Below, piece after piece: positions 10,691 through 26,260 of a stretch of DNA of 52,582 nucleotides. The notes beneath the pieces are model-generated. The model did no database searches. It was given only the letters and a program-made list of their open reading frames with translations, and was not told the DNA's origin. Position 1 is the stretch's first letter. Each line of letters opens with the position of its first letter. The stretch comes from Victivallales bacterium (GTDB taxonomy: Bacteria; Verrucomicrobiota; Lentisphaeria; Oligosphaerales; Oligosphaeraceae): the NCBI GenBank assembly GCA_017535315.1, contig JAFXUD010000083.1, positions 1 through 52,582 on the forward strand. Direction: 5' to 3'. Made by a program: the position numbers and the translations under genes.

Positions 10691-10718
10691 AAAAAGGCGC
10701 TGGCGAAGTGCCAGCGCC
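10691..10718 (-). terminator. intrinsic terminator of the outer-membrane barrel gene
   Basis: Read on the minus strand, a perfect 9-bp stem GGCGCTGGC/GCCAGCGCC with a 5-nt loop is followed by TTTTT. It lies about 30 bp after the stop of the barrel gene and is a classical Rho-independent terminator. Confidence 0.88.
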
Positions 10719-10747: not shown

Positions 10748-11704
10748 TTAGAAGCGGACAAGGAAAGCGAGGTTGCCACCCCAGGCATCAAGGTCCTGGG
10801 TAACAAAGTGGGTACCGACTTCGCCAAAGCTCTTGTCATAGCGGACTTCGGCGGAAAGACCAAACCTCTCGTTAAACCAGAAGGCAGCGCCTGCAGAGAC
10901 AAAAAGGCCGTACTCAACTTCTGTGTCGTTATCGCTACGCTTGCGTTCGCCAGCAGTACGGCAGGTTGAGTCGATATCAGCGATGCTGATTGTGGGTCCA
11001 GCGGAAAGGAAGAGAGAGAGACTGTTCTCGAACTCATAGCCGACGGAGAGACCCAGATCAAAGACATACAGATCCATCTCCATCGTCATCTTTGCAGTGC
11101 CACCACCCAAACCACTGATTGAACCGCCGCCCAGGGAATCGCCATCCAGATTCAATTCCACTGCGGTGTTATTCTTTGATTTTACAGCCAGGTATGTTTC
11201 ATATTCACCTGTTCCACCTGTGTAACTTAGATTCTTCCCAGAATCATTCTGGAAATACTGGAAATCGGCAACCAAGGAAAGGCGCAGACTATTGCTTTCA
11301 GAAAGAGTAAAGCTGCCACCAAGGACAAGACCGCAACTCTCCCACAAGCCATAGTCACCTTTACCACTTGCACTAGCGTCCGACACACTAGCTTTGATGA
11401 TATCGACTTTCGCGTATGGATATGGATTACTCTTGTCATTCAAAATATCATTTTTGACTTTTTCCAAATCATCGAATTTCGCGTAACTTCCAGAAATACG
11501 AGCTGCATTTGCACTGAACTGCACAGCCCTCTTATCCGAGAATTTGGGATCCTTGAATTTTCTGTAGCTTATGCCGAGTTTCAGGTTCCAGTCATTTCCA
11601 GAGCCCTGTGTGGAGATTTCTGGAGCAGTAACGGTCTCCTGGGCAATGGCAGCGCCGCAGATCATTGCCAATGTCAACAAGGTGCTTTTCATCGATTTAT
11701 TCAT
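10748..11704 (-). CDS. predicted outer-membrane beta-barrel protein
   Basis: A 318-residue protein with a Sec signal peptide (MNKSMKSTLLTLAMICGAAIAQE, cleavage likely after the Ala-Gln region). It then has alternating polar/hydrophobic strands typical of porin-like barrels (SLSLFLSAGPTISIAD, YGLFVSAGAAFWFNERFGLSAEVRY) and ends in Phe (LAFLVRF), the usual BAM recognition signal. The SD GAGGGC lies 6 nt from ATG. It is the last gene after the dockerin- and cohesin-type genes, ending at a strong terminator, so it may be made with them and could help display or anchor them. The exact family is not recognised. Confidence 0.75.
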   Translation of the reverse strand: MNKSMKSTLLTLAMICGAAIAQETVTAPEISTQGSGNDWNLKLGISYRKFKDPKFSDKRAVQFSANAARISGSYAKFDDLEKVKNDILNDKSNPYPYAKVDIIKASVSDASASGKGDYGLWESCGLVLGGSFTLSESNSLRLSLVADFQYFQNDSGKNLSYTGGTGEYETYLAVKSKNNTAVELNLDGDSLGGGSISGLGGGTAKMTMEMDLYVFDLGLSVGYEFENSLSLFLSAGPTISIADIDSTCRTAGERKRSDNDTEVEYGLFVSAGAAFWFNERFGLSAEVRYDKSFGEVGTHFVTQDLDAWGGNLAFLVRF

Positions 11705-11795: not shown

Positions 11796-14700
11796 TTATT
11801 TCACGATATAGACCGTGTAAGGCTCAGATGTTCCATCTGTATAATAGAAGCGAATAACCGCAACATCACCCTTGTCAATGGTGGCACCATTGATTGTAAG
11901 GGTTGCTGTTCCATCCCCTGCGTCTTCCAGATTAACGGCAGAGTCTTTGGTTTTGATGGCATAATACCATGTAACACTGTCATCATCACGGTGAGCAAGC
12001 TGAACATCAACCATATCGACTTTATCAATTCCTGTCATCATAAACGACAAGACATTGTCGGCCGTATTCTCATCCTTGAAAACACTGGCAATGACTGGCT
12101 TGTCGGTCTTCTTGACCAAGGAGAAATCCATCACCTTGGAATAGACCTCAGCCTCGTCTTCGCCAATCGCTATCACATACCAGTTATAACTGGCTTTATC
12201 AGAGAACGAGAGATTCTTTTCATAACTGCACGCCTGGAGATTCTCTGATTCAAAACTCATCGTCTCATTCTCAATGCAGAGAATGTAACTCTTGGCGGCA
12301 TTCACCACAGGCCAGCTGAACTGGACGGCAGCGGATGTGGCATTCTTGTCGATATAGATAACCTTGCCATCGGGGGAGAATTCCCCGTCAGGCCAAACCA
12401 ACTCAACCTCGGTCTGCTCCGCGACGTTGGTAAGGGCGGTCTCTGCGGAGACTGGGCCCTCTCCCTTCGGGTTGGTCCCCTGAATAGTCACGGTGTAATC
12501 GCCAACTTCACCAAAGTCATATTCGAATTCATCAGTGGGCAGGATGTTGCCATCCTCACCTGGGGTGAACTTTTTGGTGATTCTCTTGTATTCCACGCCG
12601 TCCCTATAGATAATCAAGGTGTATTCGGAGGCGAGAGGTGCTTTCACCGTGATGGTGCCATCCTCATAAGAGACCGTGGCATTCCCAGGAGTATCGTAAT
12701 CAGGAACAGTGAGTAGTGTGTCTTCTGGGCAGACTTCCGTGGAAGCACCGCTAGAAACAGTCCATGCATAGGCGGTGACCGTGTAATCGCCAGGCATCAG
12801 CCCCTTGCAACCCTGTTCGTAGTAGTCGGCAGGCTTCAGCTCACCGCCTTTGACAATCAGCGTGGTGCTTGCGCCGCCAGCAACAGGTGTGATGACCAGC
12901 TGGTGGGCATCATGACCCTCTTCGCAATCCTTCTTGTAAGGCGGATACCAAGGCGTGGCACCAAGGGAGACCTTGACGCTGATTTCATCGCTGGTGTCCT
13001 GATAGGGCGTTCCGCCATTATCCTGGACCTTGAACTTGATGGTCGCCTCGGCTCCAGCCTGTGCATTCTGATTGATTCTGCCTTTGACGATGACGCTCTT
13101 GCCGTCCTCTGACTTGTTCACTTCATAGCCATCCAGCAACCCAGCCTCGTTTTCGATCACAAAGTCCAAACACAAAACAATTGTCTGTTCAGCCTCGTCC
13201 GCGCTGGCACCGAAGCTGGTCACAGCGAACGTCTGCTCGAACTCTTCATCGTCAGGATTGACATAGATGTCACTGACTTCCACGACAGGCTTCGTGTTGA
13301 TCGGTTCGATGGTGAGGTAGAACTTGGCCTTGGCAGACGCGCCGTCCTGGTCGGTTGCGACCAGCTCGAAGTACGGAAGCGCGTCCATTCCAACGGTGTT
13401 CACATTGGGTTCTCTGGTAATCACCAGCTTGCCGTCAACGATGGCGGCTGTCGCGAAACCCTCAAGACCAGTTTCGTCAACGGTCACTGCAACCACGTCA
13501 ACCTCAGCGTTCTCGTCTATGTCCTCGTAGGCAAACTTGACGTCGGCGTCTGCGCCGATTGTCAATGTGGCATCTGCCTCGTTGTAGCCTTCGACGAACT
13601 CGTCAATCGCGACCTCGCCATCGCCTTCGGGAACCGTGATGAAAGGAGCGCTATTCTCAATCGCGGTGAGTTTTCCACTCTTGTACTCATCGCTTTCGAC
13701 TTGCACGCCGCCTTGGTAATCGGGCTTGCTGACTGCGGTAACAACGACTTCGGGAACTTGGCCTTTCTTCAGTGCGGTTGTGAATGTCAAGTCGGTGCCA
13801 GGAGCAGTGGCCTCGCTCGTCTCAACAAGTTCGTCATCGACGTAGAGTTCATAGACATAGCTGACTTCATCGCCGTCAGGATCAGCGGCTCCCTGAGCAT
13901 GAGCCTGGATTGTCGCGCCTGTCTTGTTGCCGCCGACATAGACGACATCGCAATTGTTTGGCGCGCTCGCTGGACGATCAGTGTCATTGACTGTCACTGT
14001 GAACTCCTTCTCCGTGGAAACGCCCATTGCGTCTGTGACCACAACCTTGACCTTGTAGTCGGCTGAGGCCGCACGGTCCTTGCCGTTAAGAGTCTCGTAG
14101 CCCTTGGTCTTGACGATGATTTCCATCTCGTCCTTTTCGGGGAAGTTGCCGTTGGCGTCAGCTGGGTTGTTCTTGTTCGTCTCTGTTCCGAAGATGATGC
14201 TGCCTTCACCGTCGGTGATTGTCCAGGCGATGGACTGAATGCCGTAAGGAGCAACCTCCTTCGAGTCGGATGCCTTGACGGTGAGCGTAAGAGCGTTTGC
14301 CTGTTTGTCGGCGTCAACCTCGTCAATTGTGAATTCGGTCGTGCCATCCTCAATCACAGGAGGAGGATTGTCCCTGTAGGAGACTGCCACCGTAACTTCG
14401 TCGCTGTCGTCAGTGCCGTCGTTGACCTTGACGGTGATGCTACCGTCGGTGAACTCGGTGTCGGTGTCGGTGACGGTGTACGTTACGGTGAACTTGCCGT
14501 CAGCCACAGCCGATTTTTCAACTGTGCCCTTGACGCCGTTCGCTGTGACAGTGAACTCGTCGGCTGGGTCTGCATCGGTAATCGTGAATTCGACTGTTCC
14601 AGTGGTCGCCGTGCCCTTGCGGATGAAGATGCTCTCAGATGCTGCCGCTAGTGCGGGTGCGGTGTTGCCGATTTCGATTTCAGGGCCATCGACATATTTC

Positions 14701-16259
14701 CGTGAATCTTTGGTTGTAGTGCCAACCTGGGCGATTGCCCAAATGGTGGCCTTCCATTTCTCGCCCTTAGCTGTGAAATCGGCTTTAAGTGTCTCGCCTA
14801 TCTTTGATACGCTTCCGCAGGTCCACTCAACTGTATAAGTTATTTCATCGCCGTCAGCATCGGTGGCTTCACCATAAACAACGGTGATGTCATCATTGGT
14901 GGTCGGAGCAGCAGGTTCATATTTTGTAAACGTCGGGAAGGTCACCTCGCGGTCAACGTCCTGGATTCCTGTGGAAAGGATTTCAGGATCGGAAGTCTTA
15001 TTGACATCAACTTCCTCTATGCTATCCGTGACCTGGAAGGTAATCGTCCACGGGAGGTAATAAAGACCGTTGACTGAGGTGCCCGTATGCGAGACAAGGT
15101 CCTGCGAGAGAGCCTCTGTGCCCGTAAATGTCCAGACGCCATCTTCCTTGGTGAATCCACCCGCCAAGGTCTCCCCGTTCAGCTTGACGGAGTTGGCAAC
15201 GGGGTGTACCTTCGTCTCGTCTGTCTCGTCGTCATCAGCGTCTGTGATGGTGAAGGTGAACTTGACCTTCATGGTCTCCATCATGGCGTAATCGTCATCT
15301 TTGACTATCGTGAAGTTCGAAACCACTGGAGCGCTGTTCGCGGGCTCCACAGTCAGTGTCAGCGTATTCGTGTCCGTGTATTTTTCGTCGCTTGAAGTGG
15401 CGGTGAAAGGAATCACGAACTCAAGGTTGTTGTGTCCAATGACCTCTGTCACATTGCCATTCCATTCAATCGTCCCTTTATCTTTGTTAAGCAGCTTGAA
15501 CGACCCGAATTTTGCGGCTGTGTAGTCTTTTGCCTCGCCACCGACCTTGACGGTGATGTTCGCGTTGTCAATGGCCGTCACACTACCGCCCTCCGTCGAA
15601 TAGGCTTCGCCCTTTTCATTCGTGTATTGAAGCTTGCTGCCCAGCGAGCTTTCCGCTGAAGTTCCGAGTGTCCATTCCGTAATGGTACTTGTTGCGGAAG
15701 AAACATTGAAGAGCTTCACGACCTCGCCTGTCGCGTCCACAAACACCATACCTATTTTTGTGGTATTGGCGTCAAAAGCACCGATGACAGAATCCATGCC
15801 GTCGCCTGCCGCACCTTTGCTTGCATCATCAAAAAGGTTGAGGGCTATTTCAGTGCCCTTTTCGACACCCTCCTTGACCTTGAAAGTGAATGTCGCGACT
15901 GGGGCATCAAAGCCTGCGGGAATGCAGACGCTTCCATCACCACTGCCGAGACCAACATAGGCGATTCCGTCAGCAACCTCAGAGCCGAAGCTGGAATAGT
16001 ACTTGTTAGGATCCTCATATCCTTCGGCTGGCACGCAACTGACCAGCTCCAGCACCGCAGGATTCCAGTTCATAACTGCAAACACACTCGTCAGACCCGT
16101 CGTTGGGCTCTCCACTTTCGCCACCACTTCGAACTGTGCTCCCGCTTGATTGTCAATGCTGGAAGGATCAAGGCTGATTGTGACATCAGCAAATGCCGCC
16201 ACTCCCGCCACCAGCATGATCAGCGCAAGCAGATTTGCATACAATTTGAATTTCTTCAT
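11796..16259 (-). CDS. giant surface protein with N-terminal cohesin-like domain and cadherin/Ig-like repeats
   Basis: A 1487-residue secreted protein. A signal peptide (about residues 1-24, ending AFA) is followed by a cohesin-like domain (about 25-185). Its features are VTISLDPSSIDNQAGAQF, the VMNWNPAVLELVS strand matching the cohesin D/N-P-x-x-L-E-V motif, and TFTFKVKEGVEKGTEIALN. The rest is many cadherin- or Ig-like beta domains (repeated FTITDADPADEF, DGSITVKVNDGTDDSDEVT). The block around 440-650 is close to residues 55-250 of the 2406-residue neighbour. No sortase motif or SLH domain is seen. The SD AGAGGTGG supports the start. It lies 41 bp after the dockerin-repeat gene and is surely cotranscribed. 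Proposed role: scaffold or adhesin that binds dockerin-bearing partners. Confidence 0.82.
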   Translation of the reverse strand: MKKFKLYANLLALIMLVAGVAAFADVTISLDPSSIDNQAGAQFEVVAKVESPTTGLTSVFAVMNWNPAVLELVSCVPAEGYEDPNKYYSSFGSEVADGIAYVGLGSGDGSVCIPAGFDAPVATFTFKVKEGVEKGTEIALNLFDDASKGAAGDGMDSVIGAFDANTTKIGMVFVDATGEVVKLFNVSSATSTITEWTLGTSAESSLGSKLQYTNEKGEAYSTEGGSVTAIDNANITVKVGGEAKDYTAAKFGSFKLLNKDKGTIEWNGNVTEVIGHNNLEFVIPFTATSSDEKYTDTNTLTLTVEPANSAPVVSNFTIVKDDDYAMMETMKVKFTFTITDADDDETDETKVHPVANSVKLNGETLAGGFTKEDGVWTFTGTEALSQDLVSHTGTSVNGLYYLPWTITFQVTDSIEEVDVNKTSDPEILSTGIQDVDREVTFPTFTKYEPAAPTTNDDITVVYGEATDADGDEITYTVEWTCGSVSKIGETLKADFTAKGEKWKATIWAIAQVGTTTKDSRKYVDGPEIEIGNTAPALAAASESIFIRKGTATTGTVEFTITDADPADEFTVTANGVKGTVEKSAVADGKFTVTYTVTDTDTEFTDGSITVKVNDGTDDSDEVTVAVSYRDNPPPVIEDGTTEFTIDEVDADKQANALTLTVKASDSKEVAPYGIQSIAWTITDGEGSIIFGTETNKNNPADANGNFPEKDEMEIIVKTKGYETLNGKDRAASADYKVKVVVTDAMGVSTEKEFTVTVNDTDRPASAPNNCDVVYVGGNKTGATIQAHAQGAADPDGDEVSYVYELYVDDELVETSEATAPGTDLTFTTALKKGQVPEVVVTAVSKPDYQGGVQVESDEYKSGKLTAIENSAPFITVPEGDGEVAIDEFVEGYNEADATLTIGADADVKFAYEDIDENAEVDVVAVTVDETGLEGFATAAIVDGKLVITREPNVNTVGMDALPYFELVATDQDGASAKAKFYLTIEPINTKPVVEVSDIYVNPDDEEFEQTFAVTSFGASADEAEQTIVLCLDFVIENEAGLLDGYEVNKSEDGKSVIVKGRINQNAQAGAEATIKFKVQDNGGTPYQDTSDEISVKVSLGATPWYPPYKKDCEEGHDAHQLVITPVAGGASTTLIVKGGELKPADYYEQGCKGLMPGDYTVTAYAWTVSSGASTEVCPEDTLLTVPDYDTPGNATVSYEDGTITVKAPLASEYTLIIYRDGVEYKRITKKFTPGEDGNILPTDEFEYDFGEVGDYTVTIQGTNPKGEGPVSAETALTNVAEQTEVELVWPDGEFSPDGKVIYIDKNATSAAVQFSWPVVNAAKSYILCIENETMSFESENLQACSYEKNLSFSDKASYNWYVIAIGEDEAEVYSKVMDFSLVKKTDKPVIASVFKDENTADNVLSFMMTGIDKVDMVDVQLAHRDDDSVTWYYAIKTKDSAVNLEDAGDGTATLTINGATIDKGDVAVIRFYYTDGTSEPYTVYIVK

Positions 16260-16300
16260 TTCAAACCACCTCTTGTTTGTTGTTATTGATATGTTCCTGA

Positions 16301-18109
16301 TTATTCTATCATATCGGCAATCGCGTTGCGGACCCCTGCCGCCTTCTCGCTCTTGTCAGCGCCTGGCAGGTTATTGTATGTCTCCGTACTGAGTCCGGAA
16401 AGCATTGTCGTGTCGCCACGCGCGGTCGCCGCCGAACCGCCAAACGCATAGTTTCTGAAAAGACGGACATCTATCAAGTCGTAGGCACCAGAACCATCAA
16501 TGTCCAGGGAATCGACCATGTCGGTGATTGCAGCGCGAACTCCTGCCGCCTTCTCGCTCTTGTCATTACCAGGCAGACTCTCGTACGTCTCCGTACTAAG
16601 TCCGGAAAGCATCGTCGTGTCGCCACGCGCGGTCGCTGCCGAGCCGCCGAATGCATAGTTGCGAAGGAGACGGACGTCAATCAGGTCAAACGCTCCTGAC
16701 TCGTCGATATCGAGGTTGGCACTTCCCTTGACGCTGATGGTTGCGGTAGTCGTGGAAGCATCCTCGGGAAGTGCGACGGCGGTGGCGTCGTCGGGGAAAT
16801 TGCAGGACACGGAGAGGGAGGCGTTACCCTTCTTGGCGCCAGCGGCGGCGGTAAGTACGAAATTGAAGCCAAGGCCATTGGAAGTGGCGTTGTAGGTGAA
16901 AGTGGCGTTGTTGGAAATTAAGGTGCCATCCACGGGGGCTTCTGCTGGATAATTTATCTTCACTGGGATTTCGCTCCCCTTGTAGTCGCTAGCCGTGACC
17001 GTCCAAGGGCAGGTTTCGAATTTGCCAGACTTGTAAGTCCAGGCAGGAAGTACCAACTTGCCCGTGATGGCTAAGGGGCTCTCGGCAGTGATATCAACAC
17101 CTTGATAGTCTGCGCCAGGGAAATCAAGCTTGTATTTCAGCGTACAGCTGTTGGCGCCTGGCTCAGTGGATTTGATGTCAACCGAAAGTTCTGGTGCGGA
17201 TTCCATCTCCAGGACAGGCTTTTCCACCACGACGGCGCGGATCGAGCCAACGGTGATGCCGCTATTGTCATCGGCGCCTCTGGTGCCACTCTTTTTGAAA
17301 CGATAGATGATAATCGCCTCGTCATAATCTATCTCTGTATTAAAGGTATAGATGAGAGAACCAGTTTCGGGATCGTAGTCAAGACCTTCGGAAGTGGACA
17401 ATACAACTTTATCGGGGGAAGGATCCAGATCAACTATTTTGCGGTCACTCCCTACGCCTTTAAAGAAGGAGATTTCATACTGGTTGTCTATATCCGCAAT
17501 CTTGAAATCGTTGGGATCAAATAGCTTGATGGATATGCTCCCACCTTTATAGACGGCTATCTCCTTTTCAATCAGTGCAGGAACCTCGGGAGCCTCGATC
17601 GTCGCTTCCGTTGCCTTATATCTAATAAGGTAGGTTCCGCTGACTGGATTGGAGAGACTGGCTTCTTTCTGCATGTCCACCGTTGTCCCATTCGGCAGAA
17701 CCAGTTCCAGGATGGCATCTTTATTGGTCAGGGCAGTTTCCGCCTCCCAAATCATTTCACTTGCTGAAAAAATCTCCACATCCATCGTCCAGGTTGTGGC
17801 GTTGTTATCGGTTGAGCGATAATCCTCCGAGAGCTTCAGCATGGCAACATCTGCCCCCCAGGCGTCATTCAAGCCTGGTTGCCCACGGAACGAGATGTAG
17901 TTCATGGCATTGTCCCCTGGGTTTCTTTGCGGAATCGGGAAATCCAACTCGTCCAAACCATCATCAGCACCGCTCAAACGGCCAAATGCATTCGCCGCCT
18001 CCTCAATCTTGCCACTATCAAATACAATTTTGTATTTGAAGGCATCCCCAGCCACGACACACGCCATCAACATTGCACCAGCCAGCACAATCAGCAGTCT
18101 CTTCTTCAT
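16301..18109 (-). CDS. secreted protein with two C-terminal dockerin-like repeats
   Basis: A 602-residue protein with a lipoprotein-like or Sec signal (MKKRLLIVLAGAMLMACVVAG), an unrecognised beta-rich body (about 25-460), and two tandem 69-70-residue repeats (about 464-533 and 534-602). Each holds one dockerin-type F-hand: LDIDGSGAYDLIDVRLFRNY, with Asp and Ser at calcium-ligand spacing and the Y/F-containing recognition helix. Classical dockerins pack two such loops in about 65 residues. Here each loop is followed by about 45 other residues (TARGDTTMLSGLSTETY). The repeats are also close at DNA level (16303-16720), pointing to recent duplication. The SD TTAGGAG fixes the start. The downstream neighbour carries a cohesin-like domain. 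Confidence 0.8.
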   Translation of the reverse strand: MKKRLLIVLAGAMLMACVVAGDAFKYKIVFDSGKIEEAANAFGRLSGADDGLDELDFPIPQRNPGDNAMNYISFRGQPGLNDAWGADVAMLKLSEDYRSTDNNATTWTMDVEIFSASEMIWEAETALTNKDAILELVLPNGTTVDMQKEASLSNPVSGTYLIRYKATEATIEAPEVPALIEKEIAVYKGGSISIKLFDPNDFKIADIDNQYEISFFKGVGSDRKIVDLDPSPDKVVLSTSEGLDYDPETGSLIYTFNTEIDYDEAIIIYRFKKSGTRGADDNSGITVGSIRAVVVEKPVLEMESAPELSVDIKSTEPGANSCTLKYKLDFPGADYQGVDITAESPLAITGKLVLPAWTYKSGKFETCPWTVTASDYKGSEIPVKINYPAEAPVDGTLISNNATFTYNATSNGLGFNFVLTAAAGAKKGNASLSVSCNFPDDATAVALPEDASTTTATISVKGSANLDIDESGAFDLIDVRLLRNYAFGGSAATARGDTTMLSGLSTETYESLPGNDKSEKAAGVRAAITDMVDSLDIDGSGAYDLIDVRLFRNYAFGGSAATARGDTTMLSGLSTETYNNLPGADKSEKAAGVRNAIADMIE

Positions 18110-18182: not shown

Positions 18183-18212
18183 ATAATATATGACGTTAAT
18201 CAAGGCCGTCAA
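18183..18212 (-). promoter_or_regulatory. sigma70-type promoter for dockerin-cohesin-barrel operon
   Basis: On the minus strand, TTGACG (18207-18212) and TATTAT (18183-18188) are separated by 18 bp in an AT-rich stretch about 75 bp upstream of the 602-residue gene. It is a sequence match only. Confidence 0.5.
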
Positions 18213-18276
18213 GTCTTTTTCTTTTTTTTTTATTCTTAAGGCTAAAAAAGTCGTAATCCCTCAACGATTGATATGA

Positions 18277-18915
18277 GCCGCGTAGCGGCGGCAAGAGCAT
18301 AGCCATGGGTGGCGCCGCGTAGCGGCGGCTAGAGTATAGCCGTGGGTGGAGCGAGCCATATGAACCGCGTAGCCGCGTTAGCGGCGGCTAGAGTATAGCC
18401 GTGGGTGGAGCGAGCGCCTTTGGCGCGAGCGAAATCCACGGGATAAGCCCCCCACAACTCCTTTGCGCCGTGCCGCGAAGCTGATGCTTCGCGGCACGGC
18501 GCAGAAAAACCAGCGAGCATTATCTAGCTATATTTTGGGAATTATATACTTTAGTTGCCGATTGGACTTTACCCACAGAGAAGAGCCGCGTTAGCGGCGG
18601 CTAGAGTATAGCCGTGGGTAGAGCGAAGCCGCGACAGCGGCGAAGCGAAACCCACGGGATAAGCCCCCCAAAACTCCTGTGCTCCGTGCCGCGAAGCATC
18701 AGCTTCGCGGCACGGAGCACAGGGACTGGGGTGGGCATCTGACCGTGGGTGGCGCCGCGTTAGCGGCGGCTAGAGTATAGCCGTGGGTAGAGCGAAGCCG
18801 CGACAGCGGCGAAGCGAAACCCACGGGATAAGCCCCCCAAAAACTCCTTTGCTCCGTGCCGCGAAGCTAGCTTCGCGGCACGGAGCAAAAAAACAGCGAG
18901 CATTATCTAGCTAAA
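18277..18915. repeat. nested cluster of hairpin-rich interspersed elements
   Basis: No gene is visible between 18110 and 19039. Most of it is three or more tandem, imperfect copies of one module. In order, the module is GCCGCGTTAGCGGCGGC, the segment TAGAGTATAGCC, an outer stem CCGTGGGT...ACCCACGG enclosing a small GC hairpin, GGGATAAGCCCCCC, then a long hairpin such as CTCCGTGCCGCGAAGC/GCTTCGCGGCACGGAG. Copies are at about 18365-18535, 18585-18740 and 18757-18915, with a partial copy at 18277-18355. The segment from 18537 to about 18660 recurs inverted at about 38580-38701. Confidence 0.85.
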
Positions 18916-19039: not shown

Positions 19040-22000
19040 CTATTGATTCCAGATCACCTGTTCGATGTCAGAATAGATCCAGTAGCCAACGCCTGGGAAG
19101 GCATTCTTTCCAGGCAGGAGACGCTTGTTTCCAGTCTGATCCCAATACCATGTCTGGTCAAGACCAGGATGCGGGACGGCCGCGCCCTCTTCTCCGTAGA
19201 GGGGCGAAACCATGTTCCAGCCCTTGCGCAATGTGATTCCCGCTTCCACAGGTTCGCCACTGTCATAGACCGTGAGGGAGGTTGCCGTGGAGGTAAAGAC
19301 CCAAAGTGCGCTGCCCGCTGCATAGTTCAGGTCGGTGTAGATGTAGCACTGCGCGACTGGATCATACCCCATGGGGCGGAATGGCTGCAGACTCTTGATG
19401 CTCGCGGCATCCAGGTTAAATGGTATGCCGATGAGGTTCCAGCCAGGGAAGAACTCCAATGTGACAGAGCGGGCGTTTGGTCGTCCGACAGTCACCGTCA
19501 GGGTAAAGCTCTTGATGGCGGTGTCTTCAGTGTTCTCCAATACGACGGAGGTCGTCTCGCGCATGTCGAAGGGTTCAGCGTCATCCACAGCAAGAGTAAA
19601 CAGGAACTCCTCAGGCATGGAGTAGATATCGTCTTTGCCAGAGGCGGACTTCTCCCAGTCGAGCGTGAGTTTCATTCCTGCGGGGAGCTTAGCGGAAATT
19701 GTCCAAGTCGCCTGTTCGGCAAAGGTGCGGATATCGGTGGAGAGATTCGTCTCGCCATCGGTGAAGGCCAGCGAATAGGTGGGGCCATCATGCGGGAGAG
19801 CCACCTCGGTGACCGCCTCTGACTCCAGGCCAAAGATGAGCTCGTCATTCGGCTCGACGGCACGCGTGCCGATGCTGTACTCCGTCTGGAGAGCCACGCG
19901 GAAGGGCGTGGGCACAGGCAGGATGGTCACATTGTGTCCCAGCAATTCACGCAGCCTCACCTTGATGGACTCGTTGTTCGTGTAGATGGTAGTGAGGGCG
20001 TCGCAGCCATCGAAGGCATTGTCGGCGATGGAGGTGACGCCGTTTCCGATGACGATGGTGGCCAGGTTTTCGCATCCCGCAAACACACCTTCCGTCTCAC
20101 CGCGCGTGTCGCCGCCGATGGAGGTGACGCTGTCGGGGATGAGAAGGAAGGTCAAGGAAAGACACCTGGCAAAGACGGCATCGGCCAGAGTCTCCAACCT
20201 ATCCGACAATCTCACATACATGAGCATTGTGCATCCAGCAAAAGTCCTCTCGCCCATCATCGTGATGGTGGAGGAGATGATCACTTCCTTCAAGTTGCTT
20301 CCCTCGAAGGCGCCCTCGGCGATGGAGGTGACTGGCACGCCGTCCACCTCTCCAGGTATCTCCAGGGTGTCGTTGTCCTCACCCGCTTCCGAGAGGCCCG
20401 TAATGGTCGCCTCCTCACCGTCGCTCTCATAGATGACATCCTGCGGCGCGGGCTTCTCAGCCATCGGCTTCACGACGACATTCGGCATGTATTCCGCGAA
20501 CCAGCCAGCCACATACTCGTTGTCCGTATAGACGGTGGCAAGGGACTCGGGGAAGGGATATACTGGATTAGTGTCATCTTCAATATAAACATAGTCAAGC
20601 ATTTCGGGGTCATAGTAAGAAACACTCTGATAAGAGATGCCTATAAACTCGACTCCTGCTCCGATGGTCATCTCGACAAGACTGGAGGCATAGGTGAAAG
20701 CACCTTTTTGAATCTTCTTCACGCTGTCGGGGATGGTCACGCTTTGAAGATAGATTGCATCCTCAAAGGCCCACCCGCCAATGGCGGCACACCCAGCGGG
20801 AACGGCAAAAACCTTGCCAGCCTTGGCAGGCGGGTAAAGGATCAGCCATTTGTCCTCATCATACAAAACACCGTCAACAGAGTAGTAGAAGGGATTCCCC
20901 TCCGCGACCTCAATGGCCTGGAGGTTGGGGCTATAGAAATAACCATTCCCCAAGGTTGCAGGGATGACAATGCGCTCAAGGCTCACCAGCTCACTAAAGT
21001 CAAGACGTTCATCCATCGCCACCACTGTGGCCCCGTCGATTTCGGCGGGTATGACCGCCTCCACGATAGCCTTGTCCACAACCTCCATTACGGTCGCCTC
21101 TCCATCCTGGATGAAATAGGTGAAGACGCCATCGGAGACGTAGCGCACGTCGGGCAGTTCATCCTCCATCCCAAGAATCTGAACCTCGGGACGGTAGTAC
21201 TGGAACCAGGAAATCAGCTCCTCGTTATCCGTCTGGAAGAAATAGAGGCGAGTAAGAGGATACTCGGCATAATCACCACCACAGAAGGAGTAGTTTTTAT
21301 CAACACCGAATACCCTTCCAAATGGGAAATAGTCTTCGCTCAAGTCCTTTCCGTTCACGAATCCGACAATCGTCTCCGTGCATCCTGCAAAGGCATAGGG
21401 GGCAATGCTGTGAACCCCGTCAGGAATCGTGACGACTGTGTCTTTTCGACCCGCTGGATAGACCGCCAACTGGGATTCATAGAATAAGTCGTCTTCACCA
21501 CGGTATTCAGGTTCGTCTTGGGGAGGCACTGGCGCATATAGCACTCGGTAAAGCACACCGTCGTTATCAACGAAATCCTCACTTTCCTCCTCGACCAGGA
21601 TGTTCTTCAGGTATTGGTTCTTTGCGAGGCTTGCGTCAACACCCGTTACAGTGGCTGGGATGGTAAAGTCTTCGTCCCTCTTTCCAGCGGGATAGACTTC
21701 CAGGTAATCTGGTTCGCCATCCTCATTTGCCATATACAGCACGCCGTCCATTGCGACAAAGTATTCACTGCCCTCCTCGACCTGGATGCTCTTCAGGTAT
21801 GTGTTCGAGGACAAATTTGAATATTCATAATATTCATCATCTTGAACAACCTCCACCCAAGCAGGCAGGGTAAAACTCTCGTCGCTCTTCCCTGCAGGAT
21901 AAACGAACAACATCCAACAAAAGACATTTTCCTCATTGTCTTCGTCATAATGTGAATCAAACGCATAATAAAGCACGCCATTCCCATCATCGACATAGAT

Positions 22001-25000
22001 CAGATTTCCCTCCTCGACCTGGATGCTCTTCAGGTATGGATTTGTGGCAAGCTCGTCACCCCAAATCTCGCGTGTTCCAGACGGCAAGGTAAAGGTCTCG
22101 TCTCTCTTTCCCTTGGGATAGATAACCAAATAATAGAAGGGCGAAATGACTGCCTCTCCACGGATTGCATCACGATAGTAACCGTCGTAATAGTCATCCT
22201 CATCGCTTGCCATGTAAAGCACGCCGTCCCTGGAGGCATACACATCATTCCCCTCGGCCACTTCAATGGAGGCCAGACTGTCAGCCCCCCTGAAAGCATG
22301 CTCCCAGAGGTCATCAAGGCTGGCTGGCAGGAAGACGCTGGTCAGTTTCGGGCAGGACGCAAAGGCGTAGTCTTCAATCTCCAACACGCCTTCGGATATG
22401 GTGACGCTTTCCAGAAGCGGACATTCCTCAAATGCAGACTCACAGATTTTCCTGACGGGGAGGCCGTCCACCTCGGTGGGAATGACAAGGTTCTTGACTG
22501 TCCTCCTAAAAGAATTCTCACAGCCAGAGACCACCAGACTGCCATCGAAAACATAGTCGTATTCAATGCCATCCACTGTCTTGTAATAGCGGCTCCTCAC
22601 TAGCTCGACATCAGGCAAATGATTCCTAAACCAAGCCAGTACATAATTATTCGCTGTATAAACCACCCTCAGATTGTCGCATTCATCAAATGCATAATTG
22701 CCAATGGACTTCACACCAGAGCCAATGGTCGCCTCTGTCATGCTGGAGCAAAACGCAAATGCACCATCGCCAATCGTCATGACACTGTTGGGTATCGTGA
22801 CGCTTGCCAGGCTCTGGCAACCACTGAAAGCCTCCTTTCCAATGATTTGAACCCCAGAACCCAATTGTATCTCTTCAAGGCTGGCGCATTCTTCAAGCCC
22901 CCAGGAACCAATTTCCACGACACTGTCAGGAATGGTCAACTTCACGATAGGCACCCCCCAAAAACCGCCCGAAGCAATTGCCGTGACTGGGAAGCCGTCA
23001 ACTTTGGATGGGATGGCCAGTTCAGTTATCTCTGAATCGTAGAGTTCTTCCGACGCCGTGCACGCCAGTTTGCCTCCAGGTATCATGTAATATCCAATGC
23101 CATCCAAAAGGGTGTAATACCCCAGCATCACAACCTCTACTCCAGGCATGTTCTCCTCAAACCACTCACCCACATAGGAATTGATGGTATAGACGATCTT
23201 CAGGCTGTCGCATCCCTCAAACGCATCCTCGGCAATCTCAATGGGCTCCGCATAAACAGGCATAAAATATTCCACGCCTCTGAGGGAAACGACTGCAAGA
23301 TTCTTGCAATCTCCAAAAGCCCGTGAAGCAATTGAGGTGATGGAATCGGGAATGACGACACTGGTCAAGTCATTGTCGTTTTCAAACGCTTTCTCACCAA
23401 TGGCCACCACGGTGATGGCGTTCCTCCCACGTTGTTGCCCTTCACCATACTCGAAACTTAGTTCAAAGGGAATGACGACCTCGGCGAGGGAGGCGTCCGC
23501 TATCCCTATCACCGTGGCCTTATCTCCATCAATGGCATAGAGGATTCCATCCTTGCGGACTATTCCGCTTTCCCACACAATGTCATCGACCCAGGCGCAG
23601 TCATCATAATCAGAATCGCTTTCGTCCTTGGCGTAAACCCAACTCAGAACATGCTCGCCCTCCCCAAGGACAGGGAACGATACCCGAGTCCACTCTGTAT
23701 TTCCTGAAATGCTCTTCTGGAATACGCCGTCGATATAGAATGAGAGCTTATCGTACCACTCCGAAGAGGCTTTCCAGCTGAAGGTGACTGTTCCACACCC
23801 CGTGACCTTCGCAATCAAGGAGGTGGATTCATCGTCGTCGATGTCCCCCGACTGCATGGCGGAGGGTGCGCTGTTGTAGGTCTCCGTCTGCAGGAACCAG
23901 GGCGTGCCCGAGGTGTACATCGTCACGCCGTCCCCGGTGACAATGGCCATGGCCTCCACCAGGTCCTCCAAGGGCATCCCCTGCATGATGAACTTGATGG
24001 TGACTTCGTCGCTGGTGTCCTCAAATGGCATTCCGCCATCGTCCTGGATGGTGATGACCATTTCAAGTTCGGAGCCGATCGCCACCTCCTCATCCATCGT
24101 GAACTTGACGCTGAAGCTCTTTCCATCCTCGGCGATTTCAAAAGTGGGTTCATCGGCAAAGAAGCCCTCCCATTCGCAGCTAACCAAATTAACTGCGAGA
24201 ATCTTCTGCTTCTCATCCTCGTAGGCGCAGGCACCCATGCTCTCCATCTCAAAGACAACGCTCTTCTCGGTGCCGTCAAGGTCGGTGGGCAAGATAGCAA
24301 CATTCACGGCTGCGACGACGGGCTTGGTGTTGACAGGAGTGATCTCGACGGGAATTGCCGTCTCCATGGACGTGCCCGACGCGTCAGTGACGCTAATCAC
24401 AAAGCTGGGAAGCGTCTCAAGGCCAACGGTGCTCTTGTTGGCGATGCGGGTGACGGTCAGCTTGCCGTCCGCATATTCGAGAGTGGCGTAGTCGGCGATG
24501 TTGGTGCCGTCAACCGTGATGGTGACGGTATCGACGCCAGCGGCCTCGTCGAGGTCATAGTAGGCGGCGATGGTATTTTCAGCGTCAACTTGTTCACCTC
24601 TGATCTGATTTGTCGGGTACCAATCATCGTAGGATAATGCGTACTGGAAAAAAGCCCTGCCGACATTGCGCACCGCGTTGTCGCCAAGCAAGCGCTTGAT
24701 GCGGGACCAGAGGTCCGATTGGGCTTTTTCGATGTTGAAGACGAGGGGCTCTTGATTGTAGCCTTCGACAGCGCCTTCCCAGGTGACGATCTCCAAGGCA
24801 ACGAGCTCGGGCGCGGTGTTGGCGACAGCGGCCAAATCAGCGGCCAGCTCACCGCCATCAACGTCAACTGTGGCATACGGGGCCTTGCTGACAGCAACAG
24901 CCTTGACATTGGGAACCTCTCCCTTCTTGACCGTTGCGGTGGAAACATATTGCTCGCCATCCGCGACAGCGACGTCGCTCTCCAGGGCAACACCGTCAAC

Positions 25001-26260
25001 GGAGAGGGTCACCTTGTAGAAGATGGCATCGCCGTCCGCATCCTCCGCACCGCTCGGCGTGGCGGAAACGGTGGAGCCCGTTTGAAGCGTCTCAGGCAGA
25101 CCTAGAGAGGTCGGGGCTGTCGCGACGCGATCCACGTCGTTGATGGTGACGTTGAAGATCGCTTCAGTGGAAAGGCCCGCGGCATTGGTCACGGTCGCCT
25201 TGATGACAAAGTCAGCGCTTTCGGGGCGGTCGGCTCCCGCAATGGTGTCATAGCCAGCGGTGGTGACGGCGATTCTGACATCGCGCCCTCTTTCATCGCC
25301 AGTGTATTCATCGACTACTTTATAGCTCCACCCTTCGGGAACCGTCCATTCGATGGGCTTGATGCCGATCTCGCCCTCATCGTTAGGGTCGTTGGCGGAA
25401 ACGCCAATCTCAAATGTCGTGGCGGCGGCGGTACCTGCTTGGGCGGCTGCCGCGTCCTCGGTCACGACCTCGTCCATAACCTCCTCGTCCATGATTGTCT
25501 TGACCAGAGGCGGCCAGAACGAGGAGTAACTGACGGGAATGGTGACTTCGTTGCTGTCCACAGTACCGTCATTGACCTTGACGGTGATGCTTCCGTCGGT
25601 GAACTCTTCTTCGGCGTTCAGCACAGTGATTGTAACCGCAAACTCGCGACCATCAACAGCGCCCTGATTTGGTTCTACTGAAACCTTTGCGCCGAGCGCA
25701 TCAATGGTGAAGGTGTCGGCCTCGTCCGCGTCGGTTATCGTGAAATTGACAGTGGCAGAGGTCGCCTCGCCTTTGGGTATGAAAACGCTCTCTGTGTCGG
25801 CTGCAAGCACAGGCGCGGTGTTGCCGATGATGGTAATTGTGGGGCACACAGCCTGGGTCACGACATCTATGATGGCGGGGCCATACGGCTGGGTGGTCGC
25901 AGTGATGACGGCATGCCAGGTATCACCCTTCTTGGTCTCGGATGCAAGAAGTTTTTCGCCAACATATGCATCACCAGAGCCGCTAGCCCATTCGATCCTG
26001 TAGGTAATCGTGTCGCCGTCCTCGTCGGTGGCTTCGGCGTAAACAACGGTGATGTCATCATTGGTGGTCGGTGAAGCGGGTACGTATTTGATGAATGTCG
26101 GAGCAGTCTGCGGATGGTCGTCATCCTTATTGTTTTGGCTGTCAACATTGGAGTAAATCTGCTCAACCTTAATTCCCTGGGGAGCTGCAAATGCACTCAC
26201 AGCTAAGCAAGCCACAAGCATTCCCATCAGCTTAAAACTTGTCAGGTAATTTTTCTTCAT
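19040..26260 (-). CDS. giant BspA-type leucine-rich-repeat surface protein
   Basis: A 2406-residue secreted protein. It has a signal peptide (MKKNYLTSFKLMGMLVACLAVSAFAA), then cadherin/Ig-like domains to about residue 780. The block at about 55-250 is shared with the cohesin protein. A MAM-like jelly-roll follows (about 790-890, WVYAKDESDSDYDDCAWVDD), then a long BspA-type LRR region (about 920-2110) with the repeat pattern (I/V)GxxAFxxCxxLxxVxIPxSVTxIG and interspersed VYPAGKRDExFTIP units. A C-terminal beta module (about 2240-2406) with GWNLIGIP and KGWNMVSP ends WNQ. BspA LRRs usually mediate adhesion to host or polymer surfaces. No dockerin or cohesin was seen. It is monocistronic: a promoter lies upstream and a hairpin terminator downstream. 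Confidence 0.85.
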   Translation of the reverse strand: MKKNYLTSFKLMGMLVACLAVSAFAAPQGIKVEQIYSNVDSQNNKDDDHPQTAPTFIKYVPASPTTNDDITVVYAEATDEDGDTITYRIEWASGSGDAYVGEKLLASETKKGDTWHAVITATTQPYGPAIIDVVTQAVCPTITIIGNTAPVLAADTESVFIPKGEATSATVNFTITDADEADTFTIDALGAKVSVEPNQGAVDGREFAVTITVLNAEEEFTDGSITVKVNDGTVDSNEVTIPVSYSSFWPPLVKTIMDEEVMDEVVTEDAAAAQAGTAAATTFEIGVSANDPNDEGEIGIKPIEWTVPEGWSYKVVDEYTGDERGRDVRIAVTTAGYDTIAGADRPESADFVIKATVTNAAGLSTEAIFNVTINDVDRVATAPTSLGLPETLQTGSTVSATPSGAEDADGDAIFYKVTLSVDGVALESDVAVADGEQYVSTATVKKGEVPNVKAVAVSKAPYATVDVDGGELAADLAAVANTAPELVALEIVTWEGAVEGYNQEPLVFNIEKAQSDLWSRIKRLLGDNAVRNVGRAFFQYALSYDDWYPTNQIRGEQVDAENTIAAYYDLDEAAGVDTVTITVDGTNIADYATLEYADGKLTVTRIANKSTVGLETLPSFVISVTDASGTSMETAIPVEITPVNTKPVVAAVNVAILPTDLDGTEKSVVFEMESMGACAYEDEKQKILAVNLVSCEWEGFFADEPTFEIAEDGKSFSVKFTMDEEVAIGSELEMVITIQDDGGMPFEDTSDEVTIKFIMQGMPLEDLVEAMAIVTGDGVTMYTSGTPWFLQTETYNSAPSAMQSGDIDDDESTSLIAKVTGCGTVTFSWKASSEWYDKLSFYIDGVFQKSISGNTEWTRVSFPVLGEGEHVLSWVYAKDESDSDYDDCAWVDDIVWESGIVRKDGILYAIDGDKATVIGIADASLAEVVIPFELSFEYGEGQQRGRNAITVVAIGEKAFENDNDLTSVVIPDSITSIASRAFGDCKNLAVVSLRGVEYFMPVYAEPIEIAEDAFEGCDSLKIVYTINSYVGEWFEENMPGVEVVMLGYYTLLDGIGYYMIPGGKLACTASEELYDSEITELAIPSKVDGFPVTAIASGGFWGVPIVKLTIPDSVVEIGSWGLEECASLEEIQLGSGVQIIGKEAFSGCQSLASVTIPNSVMTIGDGAFAFCSSMTEATIGSGVKSIGNYAFDECDNLRVVYTANNYVLAWFRNHLPDVELVRSRYYKTVDGIEYDYVFDGSLVVSGCENSFRRTVKNLVIPTEVDGLPVRKICESAFEECPLLESVTISEGVLEIEDYAFASCPKLTSVFLPASLDDLWEHAFRGADSLASIEVAEGNDVYASRDGVLYMASDEDDYYDGYYRDAIRGEAVISPFYYLVIYPKGKRDETFTLPSGTREIWGDELATNPYLKSIQVEEGNLIYVDDGNGVLYYAFDSHYDEDNEENVFCWMLFVYPAGKSDESFTLPAWVEVVQDDEYYEYSNLSSNTYLKSIQVEEGSEYFVAMDGVLYMANEDGEPDYLEVYPAGKRDEDFTIPATVTGVDASLAKNQYLKNILVEEESEDFVDNDGVLYRVLYAPVPPQDEPEYRGEDDLFYESQLAVYPAGRKDTVVTIPDGVHSIAPYAFAGCTETIVGFVNGKDLSEDYFPFGRVFGVDKNYSFCGGDYAEYPLTRLYFFQTDNEELISWFQYYRPEVQILGMEDELPDVRYVSDGVFTYFIQDGEATVMEVVDKAIVEAVIPAEIDGATVVAMDERLDFSELVSLERIVIPATLGNGYFYSPNLQAIEVAEGNPFYYSVDGVLYDEDKWLILYPPAKAGKVFAVPAGCAAIGGWAFEDAIYLQSVTIPDSVKKIQKGAFTYASSLVEMTIGAGVEFIGISYQSVSYYDPEMLDYVYIEDDTNPVYPFPESLATVYTDNEYVAGWFAEYMPNVVVKPMAEKPAPQDVIYESDGEEATITGLSEAGEDNDTLEIPGEVDGVPVTSIAEGAFEGSNLKEVIISSTITMMGERTFAGCTMLMYVRLSDRLETLADAVFARCLSLTFLLIPDSVTSIGGDTRGETEGVFAGCENLATIVIGNGVTSIADNAFDGCDALTTIYTNNESIKVRLRELLGHNVTILPVPTPFRVALQTEYSIGTRAVEPNDELIFGLESEAVTEVALPHDGPTYSLAFTDGETNLSTDIRTFAEQATWTISAKLPAGMKLTLDWEKSASGKDDIYSMPEEFLFTLAVDDAEPFDMRETTSVVLENTEDTAIKSFTLTVTVGRPNARSVTLEFFPGWNLIGIPFNLDAASIKSLQPFRPMGYDPVAQCYIYTDLNYAAGSALWVFTSTATSLTVYDSGEPVEAGITLRKGWNMVSPLYGEEGAAVPHPGLDQTWYWDQTGNKRLLPGKNAFPGVGYWIYSDIEQVIWNQ

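Follow-up and report, generated by a model that had tools for sequence, protein, structure and literature searches.

Three adjacent genes of a Victivallales bacterium probably encode a private, Ca2+-dependent two-piece surface fibre standing beside an outer-membrane β-barrel, and not a cellulosome; we put the probability of this reading at roughly 0.7. The genes lie in a 52,582-nucleotide stretch of DNA, which was analysed as a whole and is called the window below. In the mechanism that we infer, the 602-aa and 1487-aa proteins would be exported via their signal peptides, and the C-terminal dockerin of the 602-aa protein would bind the N-terminal cohesin of the 1487-aa protein with Ca2+. This would give an end-to-end fibre composed of an N-terminal domain, the dockerin:cohesin joint, an Ig/cadherin-like rod and a conserved C-terminal domain. 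Since secretion signals occur together with a barrel, the fibre is expected on the outer surface, and the barrel probably holds or exports the C-terminal end of the rod at the outer membrane. The N-terminal domain of the dockerin protein would then be the distal tip, which is probably ligand-binding and would most likely serve to attach the cell to feed particles, to matrix or to other cells.

The three genes are arranged as one putative unit

All genes of the trio are on the minus strand. The gene for the 602-aa protein is followed after 41 bp by that for the 1487-aa protein, and after another 91 bp by that for a 318-aa protein:

18185..18212, minus strand: promoter-like site TTGACG-N16-TATATT upstream of the 602-aa gene (consensus scan only)
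16301..18109, minus strand: dockerin-type surface protein, 602 aa (ORF; homologues in relatives)
11796..16259, minus strand: cohesin and multi-Ig/cadherin-like rod protein, 1487 aa (ORF; syntenic homologues)
10748..11704, minus strand: outer-membrane β-barrel protein, 318 aa (PF13505 over cut-off; class-wide linkage to the pair)
10696..10718, minus strand: intrinsic-terminator-like hairpin 3' of the barrel gene (9-bp stem with 8 G-C pairs, then TTTTT; consensus match)

The promoter-like site and the strong terminator-like hairpin thus bracket the three genes as one unit, as judged from sequence; promoter-like sites around the trio are not more numerous in the consensus scan than in shuffled sequence. 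The barrel gene product scored 32.5 bits with PF13505, over the cut-off of 28.7, and neither Pfam nor NCBIfam detected a catalytic domain or CBM above its cut-off in the 602-aa or the 1487-aa protein. The host belongs to the Lentisphaerota, Victivallales, and is a PVC diderm with a 4.9 Mb, 96% complete assembly; the nearest named relatives are the Victivallales/Lentisphaerae MAGs RGIG3631 (goat rumen), ADurb.Bin082, AS22ysBPME_247 and RA.bin70. The original prediction had described two neighbours separated by 41 bp, a barrel protein in the same unit, partners devoid of catalytic domains and a diderm PVC-type host, and all of this was borne out.

The region upstream of the trio has features of its own. 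Between the dockerin gene and the next gene, positions 18270-18900 contain GC-rich direct repeats of 43-89 bp and perfect 21-bp hairpins, a block which resembles a dispersed repeat element. The product of that next gene (19040-26260) is a BspA-type LRR_5 protein of 2406 aa (6 copies). Its N-terminal Ig segments are very similar to the Ig segments of the 1487-aa cohesin protein, and its C-terminal 'GWNLIG' modules also terminate dockerin-less homologues in two relatives (G003, G008).

The 1487-aa protein begins with a cohesin module

The cohesin-like start that had been predicted for the 1487-aa protein was recovered by profile search:

15846..16163, minus strand: cohesin module, residues 33-138 (PF00963 30.4-30.5 bits, cut-off 24.1)

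The isolated N-terminus gave 30.4 bits (E 5e-7), and a genome scan gave 30.5 bits for the same protein as the sole PF00963 match in the assembly. The Pfam scan of the full-length protein omits the cohesin, which is revealed when the N-terminus is scanned alone. A phmmer search of the 1487-aa protein against the PDB led to clostridial CipA cohesins (3kcp/1aoh, E 0.003-0.006), while a profile built from 4 cohesin sequences had no PDB matches; for the rest of the protein, weak matches to tandem-95, PKD and Sde0182_C were obtained, all below the Pfam/NCBIfam cut-offs. The AlphaFold model of the window cohesin, based on only 4 sequences in the alignment, is beta-sandwich-like with a pLDDT of 56 and no clear PDB match, and Foldseek/VIA searches with it were uninformative. 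Because this model is too poor to confirm the nine-stranded cohesin fold, the cohesin assignment rests on sequence.

In most relatives, the N-terminal module at the cohesin position is not recognised as a cohesin by Pfam. Comparison of profiles ties these modules to recognised cohesins only partly (win~A 94.6%, B~G029 93.4%, where A is the module type of G005a/G015 and B that of G005b/G022), and gave no such link for a C/D/K/L/M cluster.

The 602-aa protein ends in a long-linker dockerin tandem

The 602-aa protein consists of a signal peptide, a conserved unannotated N-terminal domain of ~160 aa, further beta domains and the C-terminal tandem, ahead of which neither Pfam nor NCBIfam yielded a match. 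The tandem contains the following features:

16304..16714, minus strand: dockerin module, two 68-69-aa repeats with one F-hand each (repeats 85% identical; Dockerin_1 below cut-off; family profile leads to PDB dockerins)
16676..16711, minus strand: Ca loop of F-hand 1, DIDESGAFDLID (sequence; ligand positions 1, 3, 5, 9, 12)
16469..16504, minus strand: Ca loop of F-hand 2, DIDGSGAYDLID (sequence; ligand positions 1, 3, 5, 9, 12)

Both loops, DIDESGAFDLID and DIDGSGAYDLID, carry D at positions 1, 3 and 12, as in a canonical F-hand; D at positions 1 and 12 is invariant across 14 relatives, and two F-hands per dockerin protein were present in all of the first 14 relatives. With PF00404 (Dockerin_1) the window protein reached 12.8-16.5 bits against a cut-off of 22.9, whereas tandems of three relatives exceed it (G045, 39.6; G004, 32.8; G014, 28.6 bits). 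When a 14-sequence tandem profile was compared with the PDB, the best match was the Acetivibrio ScaB dockerin 4uyp (2.9e-6), and all leading matches were dockerins save calmodulin-based calcium sensors (K-GECO, 6.9e-6). The dockerin-like repeats of the original prediction are therefore upheld by the two F-hands, the PDB dockerins and the relatives over the PF00404 cut-off, the window protein itself staying below it.

The F-hands are separated by 69 residues in the window protein and by 55-70 in the relatives measured. In textbook dockerins they are about 30-35 residues apart and the whole module measures ~60-70 aa, and because of this difference in spacing the window dockerin is to be classified, by its sequence, as a long-linker variant. 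The repeats within one dockerin protein are 85-96% identical and yet strongly divergent between species (window 16304-16714, L057 9306-9722, L059 9393-9722), so they look homogenised within each gene.

The sub-threshold score, together with the many unrecognised modules at the cohesin position, would suit a simpler explanation, namely that the F-hand tandem does no more than form a C-terminal domain stabilised by Ca, as a spacer or sorting signal, that the cohesin binds something else and that adjacency reflects a common operon and not direct binding. We hold this to be unlikely; the family profile reaches PDB dockerins before calmodulin, and further arguments against it are given below.

The genome contains one dockerin tandem and one cohesin, encoded by adjacent genes; no second tandem was found in it, even with the family profile. 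These counts bear on the idea of a cellulosome in reduced form, or of another kind of enzyme scaffold, which would be compatible with the co-occurrence of cohesin and dockerin and with the rumen habitat of one same-genus genome. However, the pair carries no catalytic domain or CBM that passes its cut-off, the genome has no other dockerin protein, and its single cohesin is not part of a repeated scaffoldin. A cellulosome, which would call for enzymes, CBM, further cohesins or dockerins and a multi-cohesin scaffoldin, was thus rejected as extremely improbable.

Modelling of the complex made use of a tethered chain, obtained by translating natural L058 DNA through its stop codons (TAA=Q, TGA=W), which places dockerin and cohesin in a single polypeptide. 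AlphaFold gave a pTM of 0.39 and no interface, a model too weak to speak for or against a complex; the dockerin part was modelled with pLDDT 73-90 and helices at 11-24, 39-50, 66-76 and 94-112, and the cohesin part was poorly folded. Foldseek ranked cohesin chains 4uyp_A and 1g1k second and fifth for this model, with E above 0.05 and thus not significant.

The cassette is conserved across Lentisphaeria

By searching with a barrel profile and inspecting the upstream genes, we located the trio at about 20 loci, which represent 8 GTDB families from a single class, always in the order F-hand tandem protein, Ig-type protein of 1,440-2,600 aa, barrel. The cassette was found in G000, G004, G005, G008-G010, G015, G017, G018, G020, G024, G026-G029, G041 and G050, and was judged by eye in G032, G034 and G037. 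Two genomes (G049, G053) have a variant tandem (HSADF...EL..I..F), and five (G008, G010, G017, G020, G027) have a second F-hand that is degenerate or interrupted by an insertion. The gap between genes 1 and 2 is mostly 23-90 bp. No barrel matches outside the class were obtained in 388 genomes sampled from the phylum.

The tandem is always C-terminal in gene 1 and the beta module always N-terminal in gene 2, an arrangement that argues against a mere spacer or sorting signal. G005 has two cassettes (G005a, G005b) with different module types. Pairs of Ig-rod and barrel also exist as paralogues (G001 C226, G002 C593 and G017 C313, in all of which the upstream DNA is cut off, and G024 C1), which is why the conserved C-terminus of the rod is likely to lie near the barrel. 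At the G024 C1 locus (L158 2081-7852), a 1923-aa protein encoded upstream has a different type of EF-hand-like motif, in two copies, at its end.

Several further observations concern individual relatives. A fourth gene for a secreted propeller-like protein, absent from the window, is often located 3' of the barrel gene (L148 5870-6500, L149 8997-9500, L049 13841-16001, L050 1-812). In six relatives, though not in the window, a gene for a zinc-ribbon-like Ser/Thr protein kinase adjoins the dockerin (or fused) gene (L014 10220-11323, L043 6261-7508, L016 2018-3085, L017 5709-6716, L045 10552-11520, L049 5017-6186). The dockerin-less homologue without partner in G008 was considered as a loss of the pair, which was rejected, as a full cassette is present elsewhere in that genome. 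In G014 (L047 2291-3571), an Ig rod has at its C-terminus a dockerin tandem that hardly differs from the tandem of the dockerin protein in this genome, and this sequence similarity suggests that the same cohesin may bind the rod as a second partner.

Dockerin and cohesin are replaced together

The cassettes of G015 and G005b occupy an orthologous locus with common kinase, Gfo/Idh and phosphomannomutase neighbours. In gene 1 the identity is mostly 50-80% as far as the start of the dockerin at residue ~460, and 22-35% from there on. The cohesin part of gene 2 shows about 22-32% identity; from residue ~220 onward the values are mostly 60-85%, and the barrels are 80% identical. The pattern is repeated between G015 and G022; G022 resembles G005b, and G005a resembles G015. 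As both flanks remain about 65% identical and dockerin and cohesin are down to about 25-35%, both presumed interacting modules changed together. Dockerin similarity still correlates with cohesin similarity across 8 cassettes once the similarity of the flanks is removed, with a partial r of 0.88 and a permutation p of 8e-4. A Mantel test over 15 subgroups (r 0.61, p 2e-4) is uncorrected for phylogeny and is given no weight here. The cohesins of type B share an origin with the cohesins of G029/G032; a corresponding shared origin of the dockerins was suspected, and comparison did not support it.

Because dockerin and cohesin abut on the DNA, a single recombination could swap both modules without selection for binding, which is a point in favour of the spacer explanation. 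The notable part, in our opinion, is how well the replaced block fits the module borders on either side.

A putative natural fusion in a same-genus genome

In G002, which belongs to the same genus, a single 1290-aa ORF takes the place of the two proteins; this fusion is known from one fragmented metagenome-assembled genome. Residues 1-422 of the chain match the first protein (the G015 homologue aligned to residue 463, and its dockerin starts at 465), and the remainder corresponds to the Ig rod of the 1487-aa protein, beginning near its residue 582 and running through the C-terminus. The join lacks both the dockerin and the cohesin, along with some Ig domains. Judged by this alignment, a covalent chain stands where the relatives have dockerin and cohesin at facing protein ends. 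The absence of both modules together counts against a spacer or sorting signal, and the joint module swap and the fusion together support pairing of the 602-aa and 1487-aa proteins.

Both results also bear on interspecies adhesion, in which the cohesin would take dockerins of other cells, be they those of a host or of partner bacteria, while foreign cohesins would receive the 602-aa dockerin, as proposed for ANME/SRB consortia. Both partners of the ANME-2c/Seep-SRB2 association express cohesin/dockerin proteins highly (PMC10553843), and the two cassettes of different module type in G005 could be read in the same way. However, in the window both halves are encoded as single copies in one operon of one genome, and matched replacement and fusion favour pairing in cis, which makes foreign partners quite improbable.

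Relation to known systems and significance

Non-cellulosomal cohesin- and dockerin-like modules in non-enzymatic extracellular proteins outside cellulolytic Firmicutes were described by Peer et al. 2009, as cited in PMC8542988 and PMC9012536. Relative to those modules as presented in the two citing papers, the window has one dedicated pair, an operon with a barrel gene, class-wide occurrence and a long inter-F-hand linker. The 'planctosome' of freshwater Planctomycetes (Nemodlikiaceae; PMC6461901) likewise involves a PVC diderm, non-cellulose use of cohesin and dockerin and proposed outer-membrane anchoring, but it has an adaptor protein, peptidases and a lamin-tail-domain anchor, whereas the window trio has a barrel protein and neither enzymes nor adaptor. 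The cohesin/dockerin proteins considered as candidate adhesins in ANME archaea and in syntrophic SRB (PMC9012536, PMC10553843) are also non-catalytic, keep Ig-like/cadherin company and have adjacent cohesin/dockerin domains; they are many variable proteins, in contrast to the fixed gene order and one pair each of the Lentisphaeria cassette. The Clostridium/Ruminococcus cellulosome shares the cohesin family and the Ca-binding F-hand pair with the window, which lacks its repeated cohesins, enzymes, CBM, SLH and sortase anchor. The cellulosome-like complex of Cloacimonadota (Ca. Stygibacter, PMC8542988) also comes from a diderm with cohesin and dockerin proteins, but the tandem-cohesin/CBM scaffoldin and dockerin-bearing enzymes described there are both absent from the window. 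A camel-rumen survey (PMC6071333) listed no cohesin/dockerin proteins in two Lentisphaerae bins, a blank which fits the sub-threshold scores reported here.

Our literature search found no description of a one-pair-plus-barrel cassette conserved across Lentisphaeria. The expectation of an undescribed system is thus satisfied for the cassette and not for its components, since non-cellulosomal cohesin–dockerin proteins are already known, PVC bacteria included; what appears to be new is the class-wide single-pair cassette, the long-linker dockerin, the block swap and the fusion. Similarly, for the predicted adhesin or matrix complex at the outer membrane, pairing and the outer-membrane setting gained support from cassette conservation, module swap and fusion, while 'adhesin or matrix' is a role we can only infer.

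Non-cellulosomal cohesins and dockerins occur here and there in every domain of life, and for most of them neither partner nor function is known. In the Lentisphaeria cassettes the partner, the order of the genes and the borders of the modules are constant class-wide. Because nature offers swapped and fused versions of the pair and, in G005, a duplicated one, specificity and function become directly testable, and the cassette pairs could be a source of new orthogonal connectors in protein engineering. We also propose, tentatively and with the odds against it, that the two-part fibre is class-wide and that its joint is a fast-diversifying, mutually orthogonal pair, passed on and exchanged as a single DNA block (the 3' end of gene 1 plus the 5' end of gene 2) and sometimes replaced by covalent fusion. 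If this were true, different strains, or two cassettes within one cell, would assemble their fibres without cross-talk.
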